Positions 6,984 to 15,660 of a stretch of 32,012 bases of DNA are shown one piece after another. Made by a program: the position numbers and the translations under genes. Under the pieces are notes generated by a model. That model was not told where the DNA came from. It saw only the letters and a list, made by a program, of their open reading frames with translations, and made no database searches. The first letter of the stretch is position 1, and each line of letters starts with the position of its first letter. Source of the stretch: Candidatus Faecimonas gallistercoris (GTDB lineage Bacteria > Bacillota_I > Bacilli_A > RF39 > UBA660); NCBI GenBank assembly GCA_018712565.1, contig DVGU01000068.1, forward strand, positions 1-32,012. The letters run 5' to 3'.

Positions 6984-7062
6984 TTGACAAATTATTTAGT
7001 TATTAATATAATGTTAATAACAAGTGATGAAACACTTGAAAAATTTTACTCTTTGTTATTAA
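6984..7062 (+). promoter_or_regulatory. NAD salvage operon promoter overlapped by a palindromic operator
   Basis: TTGACA (6984-6989) and TATAAT (7007-7012) with 17-base spacing form a perfect consensus promoter. The palindrome GTTATTAA-N7-TTAATAAC (6999-7021) spans the -10 box, so a bound protein would block polymerase. Downstream come a 6-bp inverted repeat CAAGTG/CACTTG (7021-7038) and a third half-site GTTATTAA (7055-7062). The same palindrome, equally placed, recurs at 14546-14568. Known NAD-operon repressors in bacteria include NiaR and NrtR; I cannot match this site to either from memory, so the regulator is unknown. Confidence 0.8.
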
Positions 7063-7090
7063 TAAAATGTAAATAAGAGGAGGAAAGATT

Positions 7091-7681
7091 ATGAACAAAG
7101 TGAAAAATTTAGAAGTTTATGAGGGGATGTTGATTGTTGTTGATATGGTGAGAGGGTTTGTCGAGGAAGGCGTTTTGCATGATAAAAATATTAAGAAGAT
7201 TATTCCTAGACAGATTGAGATTATTAAAGAAGCTCATAATCATGGTGATTTAGTTGTCTTTGTTAAAGATACTCATGATGTTGATGCTGTTGAGTTTAAG
7301 CGTTTTGGTAATGTTTCACATTGTGTTAAGAATACTAGTGAGGCAGAACTTGTTGATGAGTTGAAACCATATGAAACATTAGATGATACTGTTTCTATTG
7401 AAAAAAATTCAACTAGTTTTATGGAAGCACCAGAATTTAGAAAGATTGTTAAAAAGGCAACTAATATAGAAACAGTAAAATTAGTTGGTTGTTGTACGGA
7501 TATTTGTGATTTTAATGGGATTATGGGACTTGCTAATTATTATGATGAGTGGAATCGAGATGTAGATATAATTGTATATGAAGATGCTGTTGCTACTTAT
7601 AGTGAAGAAGAAAGAGGCGAATATGTTTCGGCTGCTAAATTGTTAATGAAGCAACAAGGAATTCAACTAGTTAAGAAATAA
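7091..7681 (+). CDS. pncA: Nicotinamidase (isochorismatase fold)
   Basis: The product converts nicotinamide to nicotinate, the first step of the deamidating NAD salvage route, in the cytoplasm. The 196-residue protein shows the nicotinamidase triad: D18 in IVVDMVRGF, K105 in SIEKNSTSF and C135 in GCCTDICD. Probable metal ligands are D60 and H62 in KDTHD. It is the first gene of the operon, with AAGAGGAGGA shortly before the ATG. The next gene uses its product directly, which makes nicotinamidase much more likely than another isochorismatase-like hydrolase. Confidence 0.92.
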   Translation: MNKVKNLEVYEGMLIVVDMVRGFVEEGVLHDKNIKKIIPRQIEIIKEAHNHGDLVVFVKDTHDVDAVEFKRFGNVSHCVKNTSEAELVDELKPYETLDDTVSIEKNSTSFMEAPEFRKIVKKATNIETVKLVGCCTDICDFNGIMGLANYYDEWNRDVDIIVYEDAVATYSEEERGEYVSAAKLLMKQQGIQLVKK

Positions 7682-7737
7682 GAATAATTTTTTAAAAGTT
7701 GATATTAATATTTTGATAAAAAGAAAGGGAGAGAAAT

Positions 7738-9210
7738 ATGAAAAATGAAAATTTAACATTATTAACTGATTTATATGAACTTACTATGATGAAAGGGTAT
7801 CATGATATTAAAAATGAAGATCGGGTGGTATTTGATGTCTTTTATCGTAGTAATCCATCTAAAGGAGGGTATGCTATTTGTGCAGGGTTAGAACAAGTAA
7901 TCGATTATGTCAAAAATTTGCATTTTGACAAAGATGATATTGATTACTTAAGAGAACTTGAAATTTTTGATGAAGACTTTTTAAATTATTTAGAGAATTT
8001 TAAATTCACGGGAAATATTTATGCAATTGAAGAAGGAACAGTTGTTTTTCCAATGGAACCGTTATTGAAAGTAGAAGCTCCAATTATAGAAGCACAGTTA
8101 GTGGAAACGGCGATTTTAAACATTATCAATCATCAAAGTTTGATTGCGACAAAAGCTGCTCGGGTGTGTCATGCAGCAGAAGGTGATGGCGTAATGGAAT
8201 TTGGATTAAGAAGAGCGCAAGGAGCAGATGCAGGAACTTTAGGAGCAAGAGCTGCTATGATTGGTGGCTGTTGTGCTACTAGTAATGTATTATGTGGTAA
8301 ACAGTTCGATGTTCCTGTTGCTGGAACTCATGCTCATAGTTGGATTATGAGTTTTCCTAGTGAATATGAGGCGTTCAAAAAATATGCTGAACTTTTCCCA
8401 AATAATGCGACTCTTTTAGTGGATACTTATGATACCCTTGGTTCTGGTGTTCCTAATGCAATTAAGGTTTTTCAAGAGTTGAAGGATGAAGGTAAGATGC
8501 CTCAAAAATATGGAATTCGTCTAGATAGTGGTGATTTAGCTTATTTGTCTAAAAAAGCAAGAAAGATGCTAGATGATGCAGGATTTTATGATGCTACTAT
8601 TTGTGCTTCTAATGATTTAGATGAATATTTAATTGAATCTTTAAAAGGACAAGGAGCGAAGATTAATTTATGGGGTGTAGGAACTAGTCTAATTACTTCA
8701 CGTGATTGTCCAAGTTTTGGAGGAGTATATAAGTTAGCTGCTATTAAGAAAGAAGGAAAAATGATTCCAAAAATTAAGTTAAGTGAAGATAGAGTAAAAA
8801 TTACTAATCCTGGTGATAAACAAGTTTATCGTTTCTATGATAAAAATACAGGTAAGATTAAAGGGGATATTATAGGGTTTACTAGTGAAGAATATAATGA
8901 GGGACAAAATACTGTTTTATTTGATCCTGTAGATACTTGGAAAAAGACAGAGTTATTACCTGGTACTTATACTGTAAGAGAGTTGTTAAAGCCTATTTTT
9001 ATCGATGGTAAATGTGTTTATGATAGTATTCCAGTAATGCAAATTAGAGATTATTGTACTAAAGAAAAAGAAACGTTGAGTGATGAGAATAAAAGATTTT
9101 TAAATCCACATCCGGTACATGTAGATTTAAGTTATCCATTATGGGAACAGAAAAATGAAATGATTAATGAAGAGAAAGCAAAAAAAGTAAATAGAAAGGT
9201 AATGAAATGA
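7738..9210 (+). CDS. pncB: Nicotinate phosphoribosyltransferase
   Basis: This 490-residue enzyme makes nicotinate mononucleotide from nicotinate and PRPP, with ATP hydrolysis. Its N-terminus LLTDLYELTMMKGY is the family signature. FGLRRAQGADA (about residues 155-165) and GTHAHSWIMSF (196-206) are present; the latter contains the conserved histidine region that is phosphorylated during catalysis. RLDSGDL (about 262-268) is the phosphate-binding region. The length is that of the standard bacterial enzyme. AAGAAAGGGAGAG precedes the ATG, and the gene overlaps the Nudix gene by an ATGA junction at 9207-9210. Confidence 0.96.
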   Translation: MKNENLTLLTDLYELTMMKGYHDIKNEDRVVFDVFYRSNPSKGGYAICAGLEQVIDYVKNLHFDKDDIDYLRELEIFDEDFLNYLENFKFTGNIYAIEEGTVVFPMEPLLKVEAPIIEAQLVETAILNIINHQSLIATKAARVCHAAEGDGVMEFGLRRAQGADAGTLGARAAMIGGCCATSNVLCGKQFDVPVAGTHAHSWIMSFPSEYEAFKKYAELFPNNATLLVDTYDTLGSGVPNAIKVFQELKDEGKMPQKYGIRLDSGDLAYLSKKARKMLDDAGFYDATICASNDLDEYLIESLKGQGAKINLWGVGTSLITSRDCPSFGGVYKLAAIKKEGKMIPKIKLSEDRVKITNPGDKQVYRFYDKNTGKIKGDIIGFTSEEYNEGQNTVLFDPVDTWKKTELLPGTYTVRELLKPIFIDGKCVYDSIPVMQIRDYCTKEKETLSDENKRFLNPHPVHVDLSYPLWEQKNEMINEEKAKKVNRKVMK

Positions 9211-9845
9211 GAGTAGAAAAATTAGAAGAATTAAAGGGTTATATTAATGAGTTAAAAGCTATTAAAAAAACTTTAGTTCCATCGGATTATGTGTATGATA
9301 ATATGCATAATCCTGTTAAAAGGAAAGGGTTTATCAATGTTAAAAAATATATGGTGGAGCTTGCTCGGGGAGATGTTGTTGTAAGAGAAAAAATCGTAAA
9401 AGGTGGTAGGGATGGTAGTGCTGTTATCATCTTACCATTAACAGAAGATAATAATACTTTATTAGTAGTACAATCTAGAGCTTTTACAAAAGATACGGTT
9501 TGTGTAGAGTTACCTGCAGGATATATTGAAGCTGGTGAAAGTCCTATTGCTGCTGGTAAAAGAGAACTAGAAGAGGAAACTGGTTATGTCCCTGAAAAAA
9601 TAGAACTACTTGGAAGTTATTATCAAGATTAAGGATGTAGTGCTGCTTATAATTATAGTATGCTAGCTCTAAATTGTAAAAAGTTAAAAATGCAAAATTT
9701 AGATCAAGATGAGTTTATACGTTATTTTGAATGTAGTTTTGATGAGGCAAAAGAATTAGTAAAAAGAGGTTATATTACTGATTTACAATCACAATATACC
9801 ATAGAAAAAGCAAATTCATATATATATCAAAAAATAAAAAAGTAA
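9207..9845 (+). pseudogene. ADP-ribose pyrophosphatase-like Nudix gene with in-frame TAA
   Basis: The first 141 codons hold an intact Nudix box (G105 to Y127: GYIEAGESPIAAGKRELEEE then TGY). A TAA stands at 9630-9632, and the same frame then continues without a gap (GCSAAYNYSMLALNCKKL and on) to 9845. The second part reads as the normal C-terminal domain of an ADP-ribose pyrophosphatase of about 212 residues. One substitution, for example CAA to TAA, explains the interruption; no frameshift is needed. The family hydrolyses ADP-ribose or related NAD breakdown products, which fits the operon. There is no C-terminal winged helix, so it is not an NrtR-type regulator. The truncated product lacks its last third. 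Possibilities are recent pseudogene, sequencing error or readthrough. Confidence 0.85.
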
Positions 9846-9902
9846 CATGAGATTTAGTAAAAAGATAAAATCTTGATACACTATAAAAAAGGAGAGATAC
9901 AA

Positions 9903-11834
9903 GTGAAAGAGTATGGATTTATCAGAGTAGGTGCTATTGTAAATAAATTAGCTTTAGCTAATCCTATGAAAAATGCAGAAGAAATAGTTAAAGAGATAAA
10001 ACAGGCAGTAAAAAGAGGTGTATCGATTGTAGCAACTCCAGAATTGTCTTTAACTGGATATACTTGTGGTGATTTATTTTTACAAGATCAATTATTGATT
10101 GATAGTGAAAAAGCTTTACGAAAGTTATTAGATGAGACAAAAGAGTTAGATATTATTTCTATTTTAGGAATGCCAATTAGACATGATAATCAGTTGTTTA
10201 ACTGTGCTGTAGTAATTGAAAAAGGACAAATCTTAGGAGTAGTACCAAAGACTTATATTCCTAATTATCAAGAGTTCTATGAAGCTAGATGGTTTTCTTC
10301 TAGTAGAGATTTAAAGACAGGGAAGATGAAGTTGTTAGATCAGGTTGTTCCTATTTCTACGAATTTATTATTTCAAGATAAGAAATTAAAAAATATTACA
10401 TTTGGAATTGATATTTGTGAAGATTTATGGACTGTTTGTCCTCCTAGTAATCATCATACTTTACATGGAGCAACTATTATCTTTAATTTATCTAGTAGTA
10501 ATGAACTTATTGGTAAGCATGAATATCGTAAAGGGCTGGTTGCGATGCAGTCATCTAAAACAATCTCTGCTTATGTTTATGTATCTAGTGGAGTGATGGA
10601 GTCAAGTTCTGATCTTTTATTTGGTGGAGCTAGTATGATTTATGAAAACGGTTCTATGTTAGCAGAAAATAGGCGATTTGAAATAGAAAGTAATATAATT
10701 ACTGCGGATATTGATGTTTTAAAACTTGCTAATGATCGTATTAAAAATAGAAGTTATATGCATATGGTTGATGATATAGAATATAACATTATCAAAGTGG
10801 ATGTTTTTGATACTATATTAGAATTACAAAGAGATTATAAAGAATATCCATTTGTTCCTTCTGATCAATTTGAAAGAAATAGACGATGTGAAGAAATTAT
10901 AGAGATTCAGTCAAGTGCTTTAGCGAGACGTTTAATTCAACTTGGTAATCCTAAATGTGTCATAGGTATGTCTGGTGGACTTGATTCTACTCTTGCTTAT
11001 CTTGTCATCGTAGGAGCTTTTGAAAAATTAAAACGAGATATGAAAGATATTATTGGTGTTACGATGCCAGGGTTTGGAACAACAGATAGAACGTATCAAA
11101 ACGCTATTGATTTAGTAAAAGAGTATGGTGCGACTTTAAAAGAAATTAGTATTAAGGATGCATCTATTCTACATATGAAGGACATTGGACTTCCAGAGAC
11201 AGATAGAAGTATTACTTATGAAAATATTCAAGCAAGAGAACGTACTCAAATTTTGATGGATGTTGCGAATATGGAAGGTGGATTAGTCATTGGTACGGGA
11301 GATTTATCAGAACTTGCTTTAGGCTGGTGTACTTATAATGGAGATCATATGAGTATGTATGCAGTCAATACCTCTATTCCTAAAACTTTAGTTAGATATT
11401 TAGTTTCTTATATGGCAGATATAACGACTGGTAAGAAAAAAGAACTTTTAAATGATATTCTAAAAACACCAATTTCTCCGGAACTTTTACCACCGGATGA
11501 AGCAGGAAATATTTTACAAAAAACGGAATCTAGTATTGGACCTTATGTATTGCATGATTTCTTTCTTTATCACTTTTTAAGATATGGTGCTACACCTAAG
11601 AAAATCTATATTTTAGCAAAACATACTTTTAAAAATAGTTTTACTAAAGATGAGATAAAAAAATGGTTAAAAGTATTTATTAAAAGATTTTTTACACAAC
11701 AGTTTAAAAGAAATTGTATTCCTGATGGAGTAAAAGTAGGCAGTATTAGTCTATCTCCTAGAGGTGATTTACGTATGCCAAGTGATGCTAATTATGATGC
11801 TTGGTTAGAAGAGATAGAAGATTTAGATACTTGA
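9903..11834 (+). CDS. nadE: Glutamine-dependent NAD+ synthetase
   Basis: This enzyme amidates nicotinate adenine dinucleotide to NAD+, with ammonia from glutamine. The start is the GTG at 9903, 6 bases after AAGGAGAG; the frame is open further upstream but without another spaced site. The 643-residue protein has an N-terminal nitrilase-type glutaminase domain with triad E47 (ATPELSLTGY), K116 (VVPKTYIP) and C172 (GIDICEDLW). It also has a C-terminal synthetase domain with the PP-loop SGGLDST (357-363). Tandem stops TGA and TAA end it. The NadD step between pncB and nadE is not encoded in this window. Confidence 0.95.
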   Translation: MKEYGFIRVGAIVNKLALANPMKNAEEIVKEIKQAVKRGVSIVATPELSLTGYTCGDLFLQDQLLIDSEKALRKLLDETKELDIISILGMPIRHDNQLFNCAVVIEKGQILGVVPKTYIPNYQEFYEARWFSSSRDLKTGKMKLLDQVVPISTNLLFQDKKLKNITFGIDICEDLWTVCPPSNHHTLHGATIIFNLSSSNELIGKHEYRKGLVAMQSSKTISAYVYVSSGVMESSSDLLFGGASMIYENGSMLAENRRFEIESNIITADIDVLKLANDRIKNRSYMHMVDDIEYNIIKVDVFDTILELQRDYKEYPFVPSDQFERNRRCEEIIEIQSSALARRLIQLGNPKCVIGMSGGLDSTLAYLVIVGAFEKLKRDMKDIIGVTMPGFGTTDRTYQNAIDLVKEYGATLKEISIKDASILHMKDIGLPETDRSITYENIQARERTQILMDVANMEGGLVIGTGDLSELALGWCTYNGDHMSMYAVNTSIPKTLVRYLVSYMADITTGKKKELLNDILKTPISPELLPPDEAGNILQKTESSIGPYVLHDFFLYHFLRYGATPKKIYILAKHTFKNSFTKDEIKKWLKVFIKRFFTQQFKRNCIPDGVKVGSISLSPRGDLRMPSDANYDAWLEEIEDLDT

Positions 11835-11888
11835 TAAAGAGGAGAATTTAATATAAGATATTAAAAATGTTAATGGGGGAGGATAAGT

Positions 11889-12938
11889 ATGAAAATAGTA
11901 AATAATAAATTTGGGGAAGGAATGCTTTACCAAGAAGAGGATTTAGAGGGAAAAATTTATGCAACAAGTGCTGCTTGTATGTCTGTATGGAGTGATATGC
12001 TATCTTTTGCGAATAAATACAAAGATAGATTTGTAAGTGAGGTACGTGATGCTGATAATATTGTGGTATTAGGTTGTCAGGTAACAGATCTTGCTGTATT
12101 AAATGATATAGCTGTTGCAAGCAGATTACATGATGAAACAGAAAAAGATATATTTATGGGAGGATGTCTTGCTCAAAGAATGGATATACCATTACCAGAA
12201 TATATTAAAAGGTTAGATGTAGTTAGAGTAGTAGGGTAAGAGTTAGATGATAGAAGTTTAGTTCATTATGAAAAACCATTCTGGGTACCAGGGTTTGAAG
12301 AAAGTAATGATAATTTAAAAGATGGGAATTTGTTTAGAAATTATTATCCATTAAAGATTGGTGCTGGTTGCCATGGTAAGTGTAAATATTGTACTATTCG
12401 TCATACTAGAGGAGAAGGCTATGAAATGGTGCCAGAAGAACAGATTGAAGAATTTTTAAATCATGAGCACGTGGTGTTAACATCTGATAGTCCTACTGTA
12501 TCTCAAGTAAAGGCTTGGTGTAAGATTGCCAAGGAATGTAATAAAGAAATATCTATTAGAAATATAGAGCCTCAGAACTTAATACAATGTAGGGATGAAT
12601 TATTAGAGTTAGCTGATAACCATTTATTAGACATTGTTCATTGTCCAGTACAAAGTTTTGATCCAGAATTATTAAAAGCCATGAATAGAAATGTATCTAG
12701 TACAAATGCGGCAGTAGATTTATTACATGAATTAAAAGAAAAAGAAGTTGTTACGGCTACTAATATTATTATCGATTATACAGTAGAAGGCAAACTATAT
12801 CCTAACCATGACATTGAAAAATTACAAGAAAACTTTGATTATTATTCTTGGAATCCTTATTTTGATGGTAATTTTGATATGGATAGAGCGAAACAAAGAT
12901 TTAAAAAATATATCACCAAAGAAAAAGTAACTCAATAA
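11889..12938 (+). pseudogene. Methylthiotransferase-like radical SAM gene with in-frame TAA
   Basis: Two ORFs (11889-12239 and 12330-12938) lie in one frame, separated only by a TAA at 12237-12239; the sequence between them reads on as protein (ELDDRSLVHYEKPFWVPGFE). The first part resembles a UPF0004 domain, with three cysteines spaced for an auxiliary Fe-S cluster: C30, C63 (LGCQVTDLAVLND) and C93 (GGCLAQRMDIP). The second has the radical SAM motif C161-x3-C165-x2-C168 followed by TIRHTRGEGY, as in MiaB/RimO-like methylthiotransferases. The total of about 349 codons is shorter than MiaB, and no C-terminal TRAM domain is seen. A strong ribosome binding site (GGGGGAGG) precedes the ATG. It closes the NAD salvage operon. 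Substrate is unknown, and the gene is probably inactive if the TAA is real. Confidence 0.75.
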
Positions 12939-12955
12939 TAATGTGTTACTTTTTT
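12922..12955. terminator. Bidirectional terminator between convergent genes
   Basis: AAAAAGTAAC and GTTACTTTTT pair across a 13-base loop, with U-tracts in both directions. It overlaps the end of the radical SAM gene and the end of the convergent GNAT gene. Confidence 0.75.
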
Positions 12956-13458
12956 AACTTAATTTGATAAATTTTTACTTCTTCTACGTGATCGATTTGG
13001 TATAGGGGATTATCTTTTGGGACGCACCCTTCATAGATTAAAATTCCACCATTTTTCATAGCAATACGTTGTGAGTAAATATTATCAGGTAACGTAGATA
13101 TTAAAATTCCTTCTTCTATTGCATAGGAATTTTCATGCAATAGTTGTTTTAAAAGAGAAAGACTTTGTGTACCATATCCTAGGTGTCGAAAGGAATCATA
13201 AATCATATAATCTACATTTCCACCATAGAAAAATTCATCATATTCCATGGCTTGAAAATTAATTTCTCCAACTCGTTCTAAAGTATCACATTTTATGAGA
13301 TCAAAAGAAAGAAAAGCAGAAGCTGCAATATTGGTATCAAAGCTATTAGAAAGTAGTCCAATATTATCATTAGTAATTATTGGTTGATATTCTTCTTTAG
13401 TAACGGTAGTTGGACTACTAAGTATGTTTTTATTAATATAGTCATAAAAATTTTTCAT
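12946..13458 (-). CDS. GNAT family N-acetyltransferase
   Basis: The 170-residue protein has the acetyl-CoA binding region of GNAT enzymes: GYGTQSLSLLKQLLHE (motif A, about residues 94-109), then STLPDNIYSQRIAMKNGG, which matches the late GNAT pattern of Asn/Ser followed by K-N-G-G. The first 45 residues are variable, as is usual for the substrate side. Such enzymes acetylate small amines, antibiotics or protein N-termini; the substrate cannot be told. AAGAAAG precedes the ATG. It lies downstream of the unknown gene at 13486-14472 with only a short gap, so the two are probably cotranscribed. Confidence 0.8.
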   Translation of the reverse strand: MKNFYDYINKNILSSPTTVTKEEYQPIITNDNIGLLSNSFDTNIAASAFLSFDLIKCDTLERVGEINFQAMEYDEFFYGGNVDYMIYDSFRHLGYGTQSLSLLKQLLHENSYAIEEGILISTLPDNIYSQRIAMKNGGILIYEGCVPKDNPLYQIDHVEEVKIYQIKLKK

Positions 13459-13485
13459 ATAACACTTTCTTTCAAATAAGGTAAT

Positions 13486-14472
13486 TTATTTTTTTCTTAA
13501 TTGCAAAGTTTTTTCTTGTTGTTTATTTGTTAACTTTTGATAGTCTTCTTCTGATATTTCTATAAGTAAAGGATGGTTAGGTGAATCTAAGTTTTCTACT
13601 AAGTTATTGCCAAGAGATAAAAAACTAGAAATACTTTCAAAACTTTTTTGGTATTGCTGATTGATAAAATCACTTGGTTTAACACATATCGCAAACCTAC
13701 TACCTTGGTCTGTTTTACTTTTCCCAATATATACTGTTTTATAATCTTGTAAATTATTTTTCTCTTGTATCGTAGTATTAGTAGGAGATAGGTTTAATAA
13801 GGAAAGAGGAATTTGTTGTTTATTTTTTTGATAAGTCTTTAAAATTTTGGAATCAATGGTTCCAATAGGAAAAAGTTCTTCATGAAAGACTATTTCTTGT
13901 GTTTTTAGATTGATGCTTTCTAAAACTCTAGAAAGTTCTTCTCCATCAGGTAAAAAGTAAGAAGATAGATTAGACTGGAATGGTACGTTATTATATATCT
14001 CAGAGGTAGAAAGATTTATCAATACTTGAGATTTGTCATCACTTAATTTCATTACTAAGTCATAAGTAGAAGGGGTGTTTTCGTTTTTTTTCTTTTTGTC
14101 AAAATTGTAAGAAGTAAACTCCCAGTGAAAAGATAGTACTTGTTGTTTATCTAATGTTACTTGCATAAGGTCTTTCTTCATACATTTTCCTTTGCCATCG
14201 TTTGCAATATATTTAAAAAAAGCTGTAATATTATCATCTGTTGTTTTGATATTAGATGCTATATCTAGTCCAATATCATGACCATCTTTTGTTTTCATAT
14301 ACTTTTTTGCTAATTCGATATTACTACTTATTTCAGCAGTATGAAATAAAAATTTTTCATAGTAATAATTGTGAACAAATTCTTTAGGAATTAACTGGTA
14401 TAATCTTTTAAAATCATTGGAGAAAGTTAACATTTTATCTATTTTTACTTGTTGATATGGCGTAAAACTCAT
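13486..14472 (-). CDS. Hypothetical cytosolic protein, 328 residues
   Basis: This is a soluble protein without signal peptide or membrane helix, rich in Lys, Ser, Asn and Gln. It has no motif I recognise. It reads as a middle domain with beta-rich segments (YDLVMKLSDDKSQVLINLS near residues 139-157) and a polar Lys/Gln-rich C-terminus. The start at 14472 is preferred: AAGGAG ends directly before an ATG at 14481, too close to use, but stands 9 bases before the second ATG at 14472. A good promoter lies upstream (14496-14523), back-to-back with the operator-bearing promoter of the RlmN-like gene. It may therefore be affected by the same regulator. The function is not known. Confidence 0.75.
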   Translation of the reverse strand: MSFTPYQQVKIDKMLTFSNDFKRLYQLIPKEFVHNYYYEKFLFHTAEISSNIELAKKYMKTKDGHDIGLDIASNIKTTDDNITAFFKYIANDGKGKCMKKDLMQVTLDKQQVLSFHWEFTSYNFDKKKKNENTPSTYDLVMKLSDDKSQVLINLSTSEIYNNVPFQSNLSSYFLPDGEELSRVLESINLKTQEIVFHEELFPIGTIDSKILKTYQKNKQQIPLSLLNLSPTNTTIQEKNNLQDYKTVYIGKSKTDQGSRFAICVKPSDFINQQYQKSFESISSFLSLGNNLVENLDSPNHPLLIEISEEDYQKLTNKQQEKTLQLRKK

Positions 14473-14495
14473 ATTTTTCATCTCCTTTATAAGAT

Positions 14496-14523
14496 ATTAT
14501 AATATAGTTAAGAAAAACTGCAA
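14496..14523 (-). promoter_or_regulatory. Promoter of the minus-strand unit 14472-12946
   Basis: Read on the minus strand, TTGCAG (14523-14518) and TATAAT (14501-14496) are 16 bases apart, and the gene start follows about 25 bases later. Its -35 box lies only 7 bases from the -35 box of the divergent plus-strand promoter. Confidence 0.75.
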
Positions 14524-14530
14524 AAAATAG

Positions 14531-14598
14531 TTGATTATTTTAGTAGTTATTAATATAATGTTAATAACAAATGTTTTTTTTACAAGATGTGTTATTAA
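14531..14598 (+). promoter_or_regulatory. Second copy of the NAD-operon-type promoter and operator
   Basis: TTGATT (14531-14536) and TATAAT (14554-14559) have 17-base spacing. The palindrome GTTATTAA-N7-TTAATAAC (14546-14568) covers the -10 box exactly as at 6999-7021, including an identical central heptamer TATAATG. A further half-site GTTATTAA stands at 14591-14598. Only the operator and -10 region are shared with the first copy; the sequences on both sides differ. This argues for selection rather than a duplicated block. Confidence 0.75.
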
Positions 14599-14625
14599 CA
14601 AAAATATAATAAGATGGGGCGTGAT

Positions 14626-14742
14626 ATGCTGGAAATGACAATTGGTAAAGATAAAGTAGAGAGATTATGAATTGATAATGGAATAAAAACGGAAGTAAAA
14701 GAATTTAGAAAAAAATATCTTTTTAAGGTTGATATTCAATAA
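14626..14742 (+). pseudogene. Possible small ORF split by TGA in the leader of the RlmN-like gene
   Basis: From an ATG at 14626 a frame runs 14 codons to a TGA at 14668-14670, then stays open for 23 more codons to a TAA at 14740-14742. The composition after the TGA is protein-like (GIKTEVKEFRKKYLFKVD). A weak GGGG precedes the ATG. It may be a remnant of a short gene, a leader peptide of 14 residues, or chance in AT-rich DNA. Confidence 0.25.
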
Positions 14743-14766: not shown

Positions 14767-15660
14767 ATGGAATATAAAGTGTTTAATAGTAGTGAAGGTA
14801 ATGTTTGGAAATATGTATTTACTAAGGATGATATAGTTTTAGAAGCAGTATTATATAAATATAATGACTTTTATGAAAGAACAGTGATTTGTTGTAGTGT
14901 AATGAGTGGATGTCCGGTAGGATGCAAATTTTGTGGAACGGGAGCTAATTTTATTAGAAACCTTACTAGTGATGAAATTGTTGAACAAATTCTGAGTGTA
15001 TTACGTGATAAAAAAATTATAACGGATATTAATGAAAAGTGTAAAAAGTTACAATTTATGTTTATGTCTATGGGAGAACCGATGCTTAATTGGACGGAAG
15101 TAGAAAAAGCAATTCGAATCTTACACAAGAAGTTTAGTAATGCCCAATTATTACTATCTACTATAGGATGTAATAATGATGATGTTTTTTCACAGATAAT
15201 TTCATTATCAAAAGAAATAGATAAAGTTGGTTTACAGTTTTCTATTCATAAATCTGATGATATACAAAGAAGTAAGTTAATTCCTTTTCATAAGAAAATG
15301 AATTTAGAAAAAATAAGAGATGCAGGAATTATATGGTGGAAAGAAACTAATAGAAAACCATTTTTAAACTATTGCATCGATGGGACAAATAATACAGAAG
15401 AGGATTTTATAAACTTAACACATTTATTTTCACCAGTGATATTTAATTTTACTTTTAGTGTTGTATGTTCTAAGAATGAAAATATGAAGGAAAAATCATT
15501 TAGAAATTTAGAAATAATTAATAATTTTCAAAATAAGTTTTTAGAGAAAGGATATAATGTAAGAATGTTTAATCCTGCTGGACAAGATGATATTGGTGGA
15601 GGTTGTGGACAATTATGGTATGTTCAGGACTGGTTAAGAAAACATAAAAAAATAAAATAA
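14767..15660 (+). CDS. Short RlmN/Cfr-like radical SAM protein
   Basis: The 297-residue protein has the radical SAM cluster motif C49-x3-C53-x2-C56 (GCPVGCKFCGTG) and SMGEPMLN (102-109), which matches the RlmN/Cfr GMGEPxxN motif. Both cysteines used for methyl transfer in RlmN seem to be present: C42, seven residues before the first cluster Cys as in E. coli RlmN, and C280 in DDIGGGCGQL, which matches the DIxAACGQL end of that family. It lacks most of the N-terminal helical domain that RlmN uses for RNA binding (only about 40 residues precede C42). The ATG at 14767 is chosen because GAGGTGG is spaced for it; an in-frame GTG at 14758 lies inside that site. The gene is under the same operator as the NAD salvage operon. 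It could methylate an RNA or another substrate; housekeeping RlmN itself is doubtful. Confidence 0.8.
   Translation: MEYKVFNSSEGNVWKYVFTKDDIVLEAVLYKYNDFYERTVICCSVMSGCPVGCKFCGTGANFIRNLTSDEIVEQILSVLRDKKIITDINEKCKKLQFMFMSMGEPMLNWTEVEKAIRILHKKFSNAQLLLSTIGCNNDDVFSQIISLSKEIDKVGLQFSIHKSDDIQRSKLIPFHKKMNLEKIRDAGIIWWKETNRKPFLNYCIDGTNNTEEDFINLTHLFSPVIFNFTFSVVCSKNENMKEKSFRNLEIINNFQNKFLEKGYNVRMFNPAGQDDIGGGCGQLWYVQDWLRKHKKIK

Follow-up and report, generated by a model that had tools for sequence, protein, structure and literature searches.

A putative NrtR-type operator ahead of an NAD salvage operon and of a short, probably NAD-linked RlmN-like radical SAM gene in Candidatus Faecimonas gallistercoris

A stretch of 32,012 nucleotides from Candidatus Faecimonas gallistercoris (GenBank assembly GCA_018712565.1, contig DVGU01000068.1; this whole stretch is referred to as the window) harbors two identical 23-base palindromes, GTTATTAA-N7-TTAATAAC, one ahead of a nicotinamide adenine dinucleotide (NAD) salvage operon and the other ahead of a second unit with a gene for a short RlmN-like radical S-adenosylmethionine (SAM) enzyme. 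Judged from sequence, the palindrome is most likely the operator of an NAD repressor, NrtR, and the RlmN-like enzyme probably has a job in NAD metabolism. An NrtR-type operator over both units, coupled with an NAD-linked RlmN-like enzyme, is the best explanation of the data as a whole and one in which we place good confidence. What is new is the NAD-linked short RlmN-like enzyme, the NrtR-type regulon itself being of a known type.

The window scan located both palindromes, without mismatch, at the two places given for them in the original prediction, and a promoter scan confirmed that each covers the -10 box of a promoter with a 17-base spacer (Table 1). By its count of consensus positions, the second promoter has the weaker -35 box. 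Promoter-like sites overall were not commoner in the window than in shuffled sequences (54 versus 57.4). Shuffled versions of the window (n = 100) yielded a mean of 0.01 matches to the 23-base palindrome at up to three mismatches. The genome-wide scan that had been proposed was performed on the whole source assembly (1,294,549 bases in 74 contigs, an 89.5% complete draft labelled G000, where G numbers denote the genomes compared and L numbers the stretches or loci fetched); it returned these two operators as the sole exact matches to the half-site pattern and, at up to one mismatch, again these two alone, one heading the NAD operon and the other the RlmN-like unit.

Matches to the site at up to one mismatch were present in 64 of 147 genomes, a raw count which means little because a reversed control pattern also matches often. 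Twenty stretches from 18 relatives, picked among the matches listed for strong-looking sites, were fetched, and the unit behind the site contains NAD genes in all 20, which is what the suggested search of relatives was meant to reveal. These NAD genes include pncA in 16 of the stretches; in L093 there is a fragment of pncB, whereas L086, L087, and L091 show members of a second unit. Relatives thus keep two sites, one ahead of pncAB and the other ahead of a second NAD operon linked to nrtR, which encodes, in varying sets, a protein of ~134 residues, a phosphoribosyl pyrophosphate (PRPP) synthetase (NF005299), NadD (TIGR00482), an ADP-ribosylglycohydrolase, a PncC/CinA-type protein, NrtR, and an NAD kinase. 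Across 15 genus mates, 18 of the 22 sites found at up to one mismatch lie in the fetched NAD loci, and the remaining four (three in G003 and one in G008) lack the TATAAT core common to most NAD sites. That the two sites arose by block duplication, a recent instance of which the original prediction had doubted, was ruled out, since in relatives such as L075, L076, L077, and L079 a separate counterpart position exists for each of them. The ~134-residue protein specified by the first gene of the second NrtR unit is itself conserved (e.g., L075:11318-11722) and gave no Pfam, NCBIfam, or PHROGs match, and in L087 (4954-5994) the nadD and PncC/CinA domains occur within one 346-residue protein encoded directly behind the operator.

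A further half-site had been described behind each operator of the window. Both can be read as degenerate full copies of the palindrome (Table 1), which are not significant by themselves, the half-site pattern at up to three mismatches occurring 5 times in the window against 2.14 expected and 63 times in the whole genome against 105 for the reversed control. They become more credible in light of the relatives, where 15 of the 20 fetched stretches likewise contain a second copy (up to three mismatches) located 53 to 58 bases from a strong one, the exceptions being L084 and L089, which have other spacings, and L078, L085, and L087, which have none. Several second-unit sites (L077, L079, L080, and L081) are without a second copy.

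The regulator linked to these loci is NrtR according to Pfam, the three proteins scanned (from L087, L091, and L082) harboring the domains NUDIX (PF00293) and NrtR_WHD (PF21906). In L087, L091, G011, and G004, nrtR is located in or behind a site-bearing unit. Co-occurrence was assessed in 54 genomes of the window's family that were examined for both the site (best copy with 0 to 2 mismatches to the 23-mer) and a strong NrtR match (E below 1e-90): 18 possess the site and 18 a strong NrtR, with 17 genomes having both, 35 neither, and 2 being discordant (Fisher p = 7e-12, kinship ignored), such that NrtR is encoded in 17 of the 18 site-bearing genomes. The discordant genomes are the source genome, with sites and no NrtR match, and G051, with NrtR and no site; G031 and G052, counted among the 35, encode a distant NrtR-like protein that shares ~50% identity with most of the query, and lack the site. 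Eight of 34 genomes from other families gave one match at two to three mismatches, two of which (G094 and G105) encode NrtR, and in G114 and G116, also of other families, NrtR is present and a site match is not. The palindrome is read as an NrtR operator because site and NrtR co-occur and because its 8-N7-8 layout is that of a published NrtR palindrome, given for Mycobacterium smegmatis as GTTTTCGA-N7-TCGAAAAC in PMC6800001. The same paper states that ADP-ribose releases M. smegmatis NrtR, and release by ADP-ribose is likewise reported for Streptococcus sobrinus NrtR (PMC12735969); NrtR motifs are described as highly variable between groups (PMC4666351).

The RlmN-like protein of the window contains C49, C53, and C56 of a CxxxCxxC motif in addition to C42 and C280, and all five cysteines are kept in 80 of 80 type-1 viral homologues. 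C42 and C280 are, by alignment, what we take to be the RlmN catalytic pair (C118/C355 in Escherichia coli). Its AlphaFold model, computed from 42 sequences (predicted local distance difference test [pLDDT], 88.9; predicted template modelling score [pTM], 0.89), has RlmN as its best PDB match, followed by Cfr and then by remoter radical SAM enzymes including nucleotide-bound viperin. The RlmN model TIGR00048 scored 123.3 bits, below its cut-off of 290, as did the Cfr models NF000424 (96.3 versus 530 bits) and TIGR04432 (86.2 versus 550 bits), and PHROGs gave weak matches only, to families of unknown or general function. The N-terminal 70 to 90 residues of RlmN are absent, since query residues 8 to 12 align to residues 72 to 91 of solved RlmN/Cfr chains. 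An ordinary second RlmN was considered and set aside on account of a separate RlmN-length homologue at C60 of the source genome (open frame of 346 residues) and of scores lying far below the cut-off. RlmN and Cfr modify RNA adenosines.

Twelve loci encoding homologues of this enzyme were found in a collection of 84,980 species genomes, and the four with 75 to 83% identity (L105 to L108) all adjoin NAD genes, their names being assigned partly by blastp against the window and G011 and partly by reading the sequence. L106 combines the site with nudix, duf134 (the gene of the ~134-residue protein), pncA, pncB, the RlmN-like gene, nadE, a second radical SAM gene, nadD, pncC, an NAD kinase gene, and nrtR. 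L107 contains prs, the RlmN-like gene, nadD, an NAD kinase gene, and nrtR; L108 contains nadD, nadE, a membrane protein gene, the RlmN-like gene, a hydrolase gene, and nrtR; and L105 contains a pncB fragment at the contig end, a kinase-like gene, and the RlmN-like gene. A possible fusion was noted by eye in L107 (1870-3291), where nadD-like and NAD-kinase-like sequences share one open frame of 473 residues. Plasmid records gave hits below 32% identity only, many annotated as rlmN or cfr, among the 30 of 243 matches listed.

Among the 30 of 40 phage matches listed, at least 12 records encode full-length homologues at 41 to 56% identity. Vibrio phage 496E54-1 has genes for a ribose-phosphate diphosphokinase and a nicotinate phosphoribosyltransferase family protein, with the RlmN-like gene coming directly after them. 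A PF04095 gene was present in four of the five phage records searched whole, being adjacent in one and elsewhere in three; the whole record of Stenotrophomonas phage ANB28 has no PF04095 gene, and its RlmN-like gene lies among tRNA genes. For comparison, 1,904 of 50,697 phage records, whatever their size, contain a NAMPT-type gene. IMG/VR yielded 173 confirmed stretches, and the viral locus counts refer to the best 80 among them. Clustering of neighbours in 90 loci (97 less 7 whose anchor was missed by the gene caller) identified NAMPT, NadM-Nudix (a cluster that also includes three bacterial NrtR proteins), Prs, Macro, and NADAR as the commonest. Single-protein scans with GTP cyclohydrolase, NAMPT, and NADAR (4, 9, and 10 loci) were replaced by alignment scans. 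Hidden Markov models (HMMs) of the neighbours (E <= 1e-6, up to 6 kb on each side) were applied to all 80 viral loci, detecting NAMPT in 20, NadM-Nudix in 15, Macro in 8, Prs in 7, NADAR in 7, and any of them in 26, versus none in either of two control sets, 80 dCMP deaminase loci and 80 thymidylate synthase loci; these models were built from the same loci, and the contrast is to that extent circular. After grouping at 80% identity, an NAD gene was nearby in 20 of 64 groups and, on contigs of at least 100 kb, in 17 of 33 versus 0 of 23 controls. The independent test, in which whole large records were searched for PF04095 (NAPRT family), gave 18 of 27 versus 5 of 23 controls (Fisher p = 0.002). 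The neighbours found are all on the same strand, and the NAMPT gene is within 2 kb in 17 of 20 cases. Together with the four close bacterial homologues, this enrichment bears out the earlier suggestion that the RlmN-like enzyme is tied to NAD, as its relatives adjoin NAD genes in a few bacteria and in many of its large phages.

A tree places the five Bacilli/Clostridia genes in one clade inside a mainly viral family, the labels being taken from record titles. Of the 70 labelled rows, 26 are NAD-linked, and the NAD label must change at least 18 times on this quick tree, in which 33 of 82 inner branches are open; such a number fits repeated association and also implies that the link is not fixed. 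On one viral contig (L169:3457-7403 and 7752-8195), genes for a PARP with a WGR domain, the RlmN-like enzyme, a macro-clustering protein, and NADAR occur together.

A related, shorter viral subfamily (L233, L289, L301, L304, L305, and L475-L553) was encountered in 5 of 80 NAMPT-anchored loci. Among the best 80 of its 207 loci, NAD genes are nearby in 27; the SAM-cluster cysteines are kept, while in 80 of 80 a glycine replaces C42 and C280 is missing, from which we infer that this subfamily cannot use the methyl-cysteine route of RlmN. Another radical SAM-like gene cluster is present in 14 of the shorter-subfamily loci and directly adjacent in 8.

It is proposed that an NrtR-type dimer would sit over the -10 box of both promoters, with the weaker second copy of the site positioned roughly five helical turns downstream, and would thereby block transcription of pncA-pncB-nudix-nadE and of the second NAD unit until released by ADP-ribose, an NAD breakdown product. 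In the source lineage, the second unit would have lost its usual genes (duf134 having decayed and prs, nadD, and nrtR not being found) and would now drive the RlmN-like gene, the product of which most likely modifies an adenine ring, either in an NAD-related nucleotide or in an RNA, while NAD is consumed. The plus strand showed no terminator-like site from operator 2 up to the RlmN-like gene. What the data show are the sites and their conservation, the co-occurrence with NrtR, the linkage of the genes, the cysteines, and the predicted fold, whereas binding, repression, release, chemistry, and substrate are what we infer.

Several observations weigh against this proposal. No nrtR was found in the source assembly (E <= 1e-6; 89.5% complete), nor did nadD, prs, or an NAD kinase gene have a match there (the prs search having no positive control genome), and the operators of the source genome may be vestigial or serve a gene that was not assembled. 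The original idea of one repressor over NAD salvage and the RlmN-like gene therefore holds in that site, NrtR, and NAD genes are tied together in relatives, and falls short in that no NrtR was found in the source assembly. These absences are not decisive, because the assembly is incomplete and because G008, which is 95% complete and has both site and NrtR, is also without a match for nadD and NAD kinase. Four genus mates (G001, G007, G012, and G015) have no nadD over the cut-off, no such NAD kinase, no full-length NrtR, and no site; for this reason, loss of these genes within the genus, and thus of NAD synthesis in parts of it, is possible. The reversed control pattern matched 16 of the 54 family genomes, and Corynebacterium glutamicum NrtR is reported to answer to NAD (PMC4666351), such that ADP-ribose is not the effector of every NrtR. 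The RlmN-like gene is present in 1 of 386 family genomes, namely the source genome, the other 385 yielding no homologue at E <= 1e-50, and the second site of relatives heads another NAD operon from which the RlmN-like gene is absent. The eight bacterial loci with 47 to 58% identity (L109 to L116) have no NAD gene by the models used; two of these, L110 and L115, have ERF or RecT and YqaJ genes as neighbours and are thus probably located in prophages. Among the viral loci, 54 of 80 are without an NAD gene within 6 kb, the PF04095 contrast in whole records is weaker than the HMM contrast, and only 3 of 80 NAMPT-anchored loci contain the RlmN-like subfamily, with 5 more containing the related one.

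That the palindrome is bound by another NAD regulator, such as NiaR or an unknown repressor, would accommodate perfect sites in an assembly in which no NrtR was found; the co-occurrence of site and NrtR in the 54 genomes, the 8-N7-8 layout, and the position of nrtR in or behind site-bearing units in L087, L091, G011, and G004 make it very improbable. Somewhat less remote, though still improbable, is that the RlmN-like gene is a chance passenger which came to lie behind operator 2 after decay of the second operon and which encodes an ordinary RNA methyltransferase. Its uniqueness among the 386 family genomes, its position after a decayed remnant, and the largely viral, hence mobile, nature of the homologues found would all agree with such an origin, whereas each of the four closest homologues found in other genomes has NAD genes as neighbours, the L106 and L107 clusters additionally containing nadD and nrtR with pncAB or prs, and the viral homologues are enriched beside NAD genes.

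The substrate of an NAD-linked enzyme divides opinion more evenly. The chances fall a little short of even that it modifies RNA, namely a tRNA or rRNA adenosine, its link to NAD being one of common purpose, i.e., countering a defence that consumes NAD or cuts tRNA, or recovery from NAD starvation. RlmN and Cfr act on such adenosines, both catalytic cysteines are kept, RlmN is the top fold match, and the phage ANB28 gene, in a record in which no PF04095 gene was found, is situated among tRNA genes; on the other hand, the N-terminal residues of RlmN are missing, the scores are far below the RlmN/Cfr cut-offs, and the nameable neighbours in L105 to L108 are mostly NAD genes, none of these points being decisive against RNA. 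More tentatively, and on balance rather doubtfully, the protein might represent a new class of radical SAM enzyme in NAD metabolism, namely an RlmN-derived methyl synthase that has lost its RNA-binding domain and C-methylates adenine within NAD+, ADP-ribose, or a similar nucleotide; as part of the same conjecture, the shorter subfamily would carry out a different radical reaction on substrates of this type. Were this so, phages that combine it with NAMPT, NadM-Nudix, or Prs, and some bacteria in which NrtR controls it, would either produce or shield a pool of modified NAD or disable an immune signal derived from NAD.

Depletion of NAD serves as a defence against phages, which respond to it with NAD salvage. 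An RlmN/Cfr-type enzyme without the N-terminal domain of RlmN that travels with NAD genes in some bacteria and phages would point to a hitherto unknown reaction in NAD metabolism or in NAD-based immunity. The putative operator offers a handle, since one repressor and one inducer would predict when the enzyme is made, and the homologues in named phages make the question of its substrate directly testable.

The features of the window are collected in Table 1. The decayed remnant at the head of the second unit retains a recognisable start and short inner segments of duf134, other parts being missing, and has an in-frame stop. The divergent gene, which may share operator 2, is found beside the site in the fetched stretches L075, L077, L079, and L086 and is missing from others that keep the site, among them L081 and L083. 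The Nudix hydrolase gene is intact (207 to 243 residues) in the five relatives aligned. This gene and a MiaB-like gene (at 12237-12239) each contain a single in-frame TAA where aligned relatives have a conserved glutamine. Recoding of TAA was ruled out, as it terminates 23 of the 28 window genes listed, and because TAA is the usual stop in the window, both in-frame codons are nonsense changes or assembly errors.

Table 1. Promoters, putative operators, and genes of the window (positions are those of the whole stretch)
Feature	Position	Strand	Remark
Promoter of NAD salvage operon, TTGACA-17-TATAAT	6984..7012	+	12/12 consensus positions
Putative operator 1, GTTATTAA-N7-TTAATAAC, over -10 box	6999..7021	+	Kept before pncA in relatives
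Possible auxiliary operator copy, 56 bases downstream of operator 1	7055..7077	+	2 mismatches
pncA-like nicotinamidase gene (isochorismatase family)	7091..7681	+	PF00857; without NCBIfam match
pncB, nicotinate phosphoribosyltransferase	7738..9210	+	NF006695, 687 bits (cut-off 469)
Nudix hydrolase gene with in-frame TAA at 9630-9632	9207..9845	+	
nadE, NAD synthetase plus carbon-nitrogen hydrolase domain; start codon uncertain	9873..11834	+	NF002730, 874 bits
Divergent gene	13486..14481	-	Without Pfam, NCBIfam, or PHROGs match
Promoter of second unit, TTGATT-17-TATAAT	14531..14559	+	10/12 consensus positions
Putative operator 2, same as operator 1	14546..14568	+	Corresponding place in relatives heads second NAD unit
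Possible auxiliary operator copy, 45 bases downstream of operator 2	14591..14613	+	2 mismatches
Decayed remnant of ~134-residue first gene of second NAD operon (duf134)	14629..14742	+	
RlmN-like short radical SAM enzyme gene, 297 residues, intact	14767..15660	+	Five key cysteines

When compared with known systems, the enzyme resembles RlmN/Cfr in its predicted fold (6fz6, 5hr6, and 3rfa being the top PDB matches), its CxxxCxxC cluster motif, and both catalytic cysteines, and differs from them in its length of 297 residues without the N-terminal 70 to 90, its 22 to 27% identity to RlmN structures, its scores below the curated cut-offs, and its NAD gene setting. The regulon resembles those of NrtR, as represented by M. 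smegmatis (PMC6800001), in its NAD gene targets, linked nrtR, 8-N7-8 palindrome, and regulator of Nudix plus winged-helix type; unlike the M. smegmatis palindrome as given there, its half-site is GTTATTAA. Unlike known NrtR regulons, it shows a second copy 53 to 58 bases away in most of the fetched stretches (15 of 20) and includes an RlmN-like radical SAM gene among its members, for which no description was found in the literature; more broadly, no report tying an RlmN-like radical SAM enzyme to NAD, NrtR, or phage NAMPT was found among titles and the beginnings of abstracts, a search whose coverage lies mostly outside subscription papers. By gene type, the Prs-type and NAMPT/NAPRT-type pair of Vibrio phage 496E54-1 presumably resembles the pair that makes up NARP1, a phage NAD+ reconstitution system. 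Neither "radical" nor "RlmN" appears anywhere in the main text of PMC12774641 or of PMC13232231, and PMC13232231 describes NARP1 as a system of two genes (Adps and Namat); unlike this two-gene system, Vibrio phage 496E54-1 has an RlmN-like gene directly after the pair.

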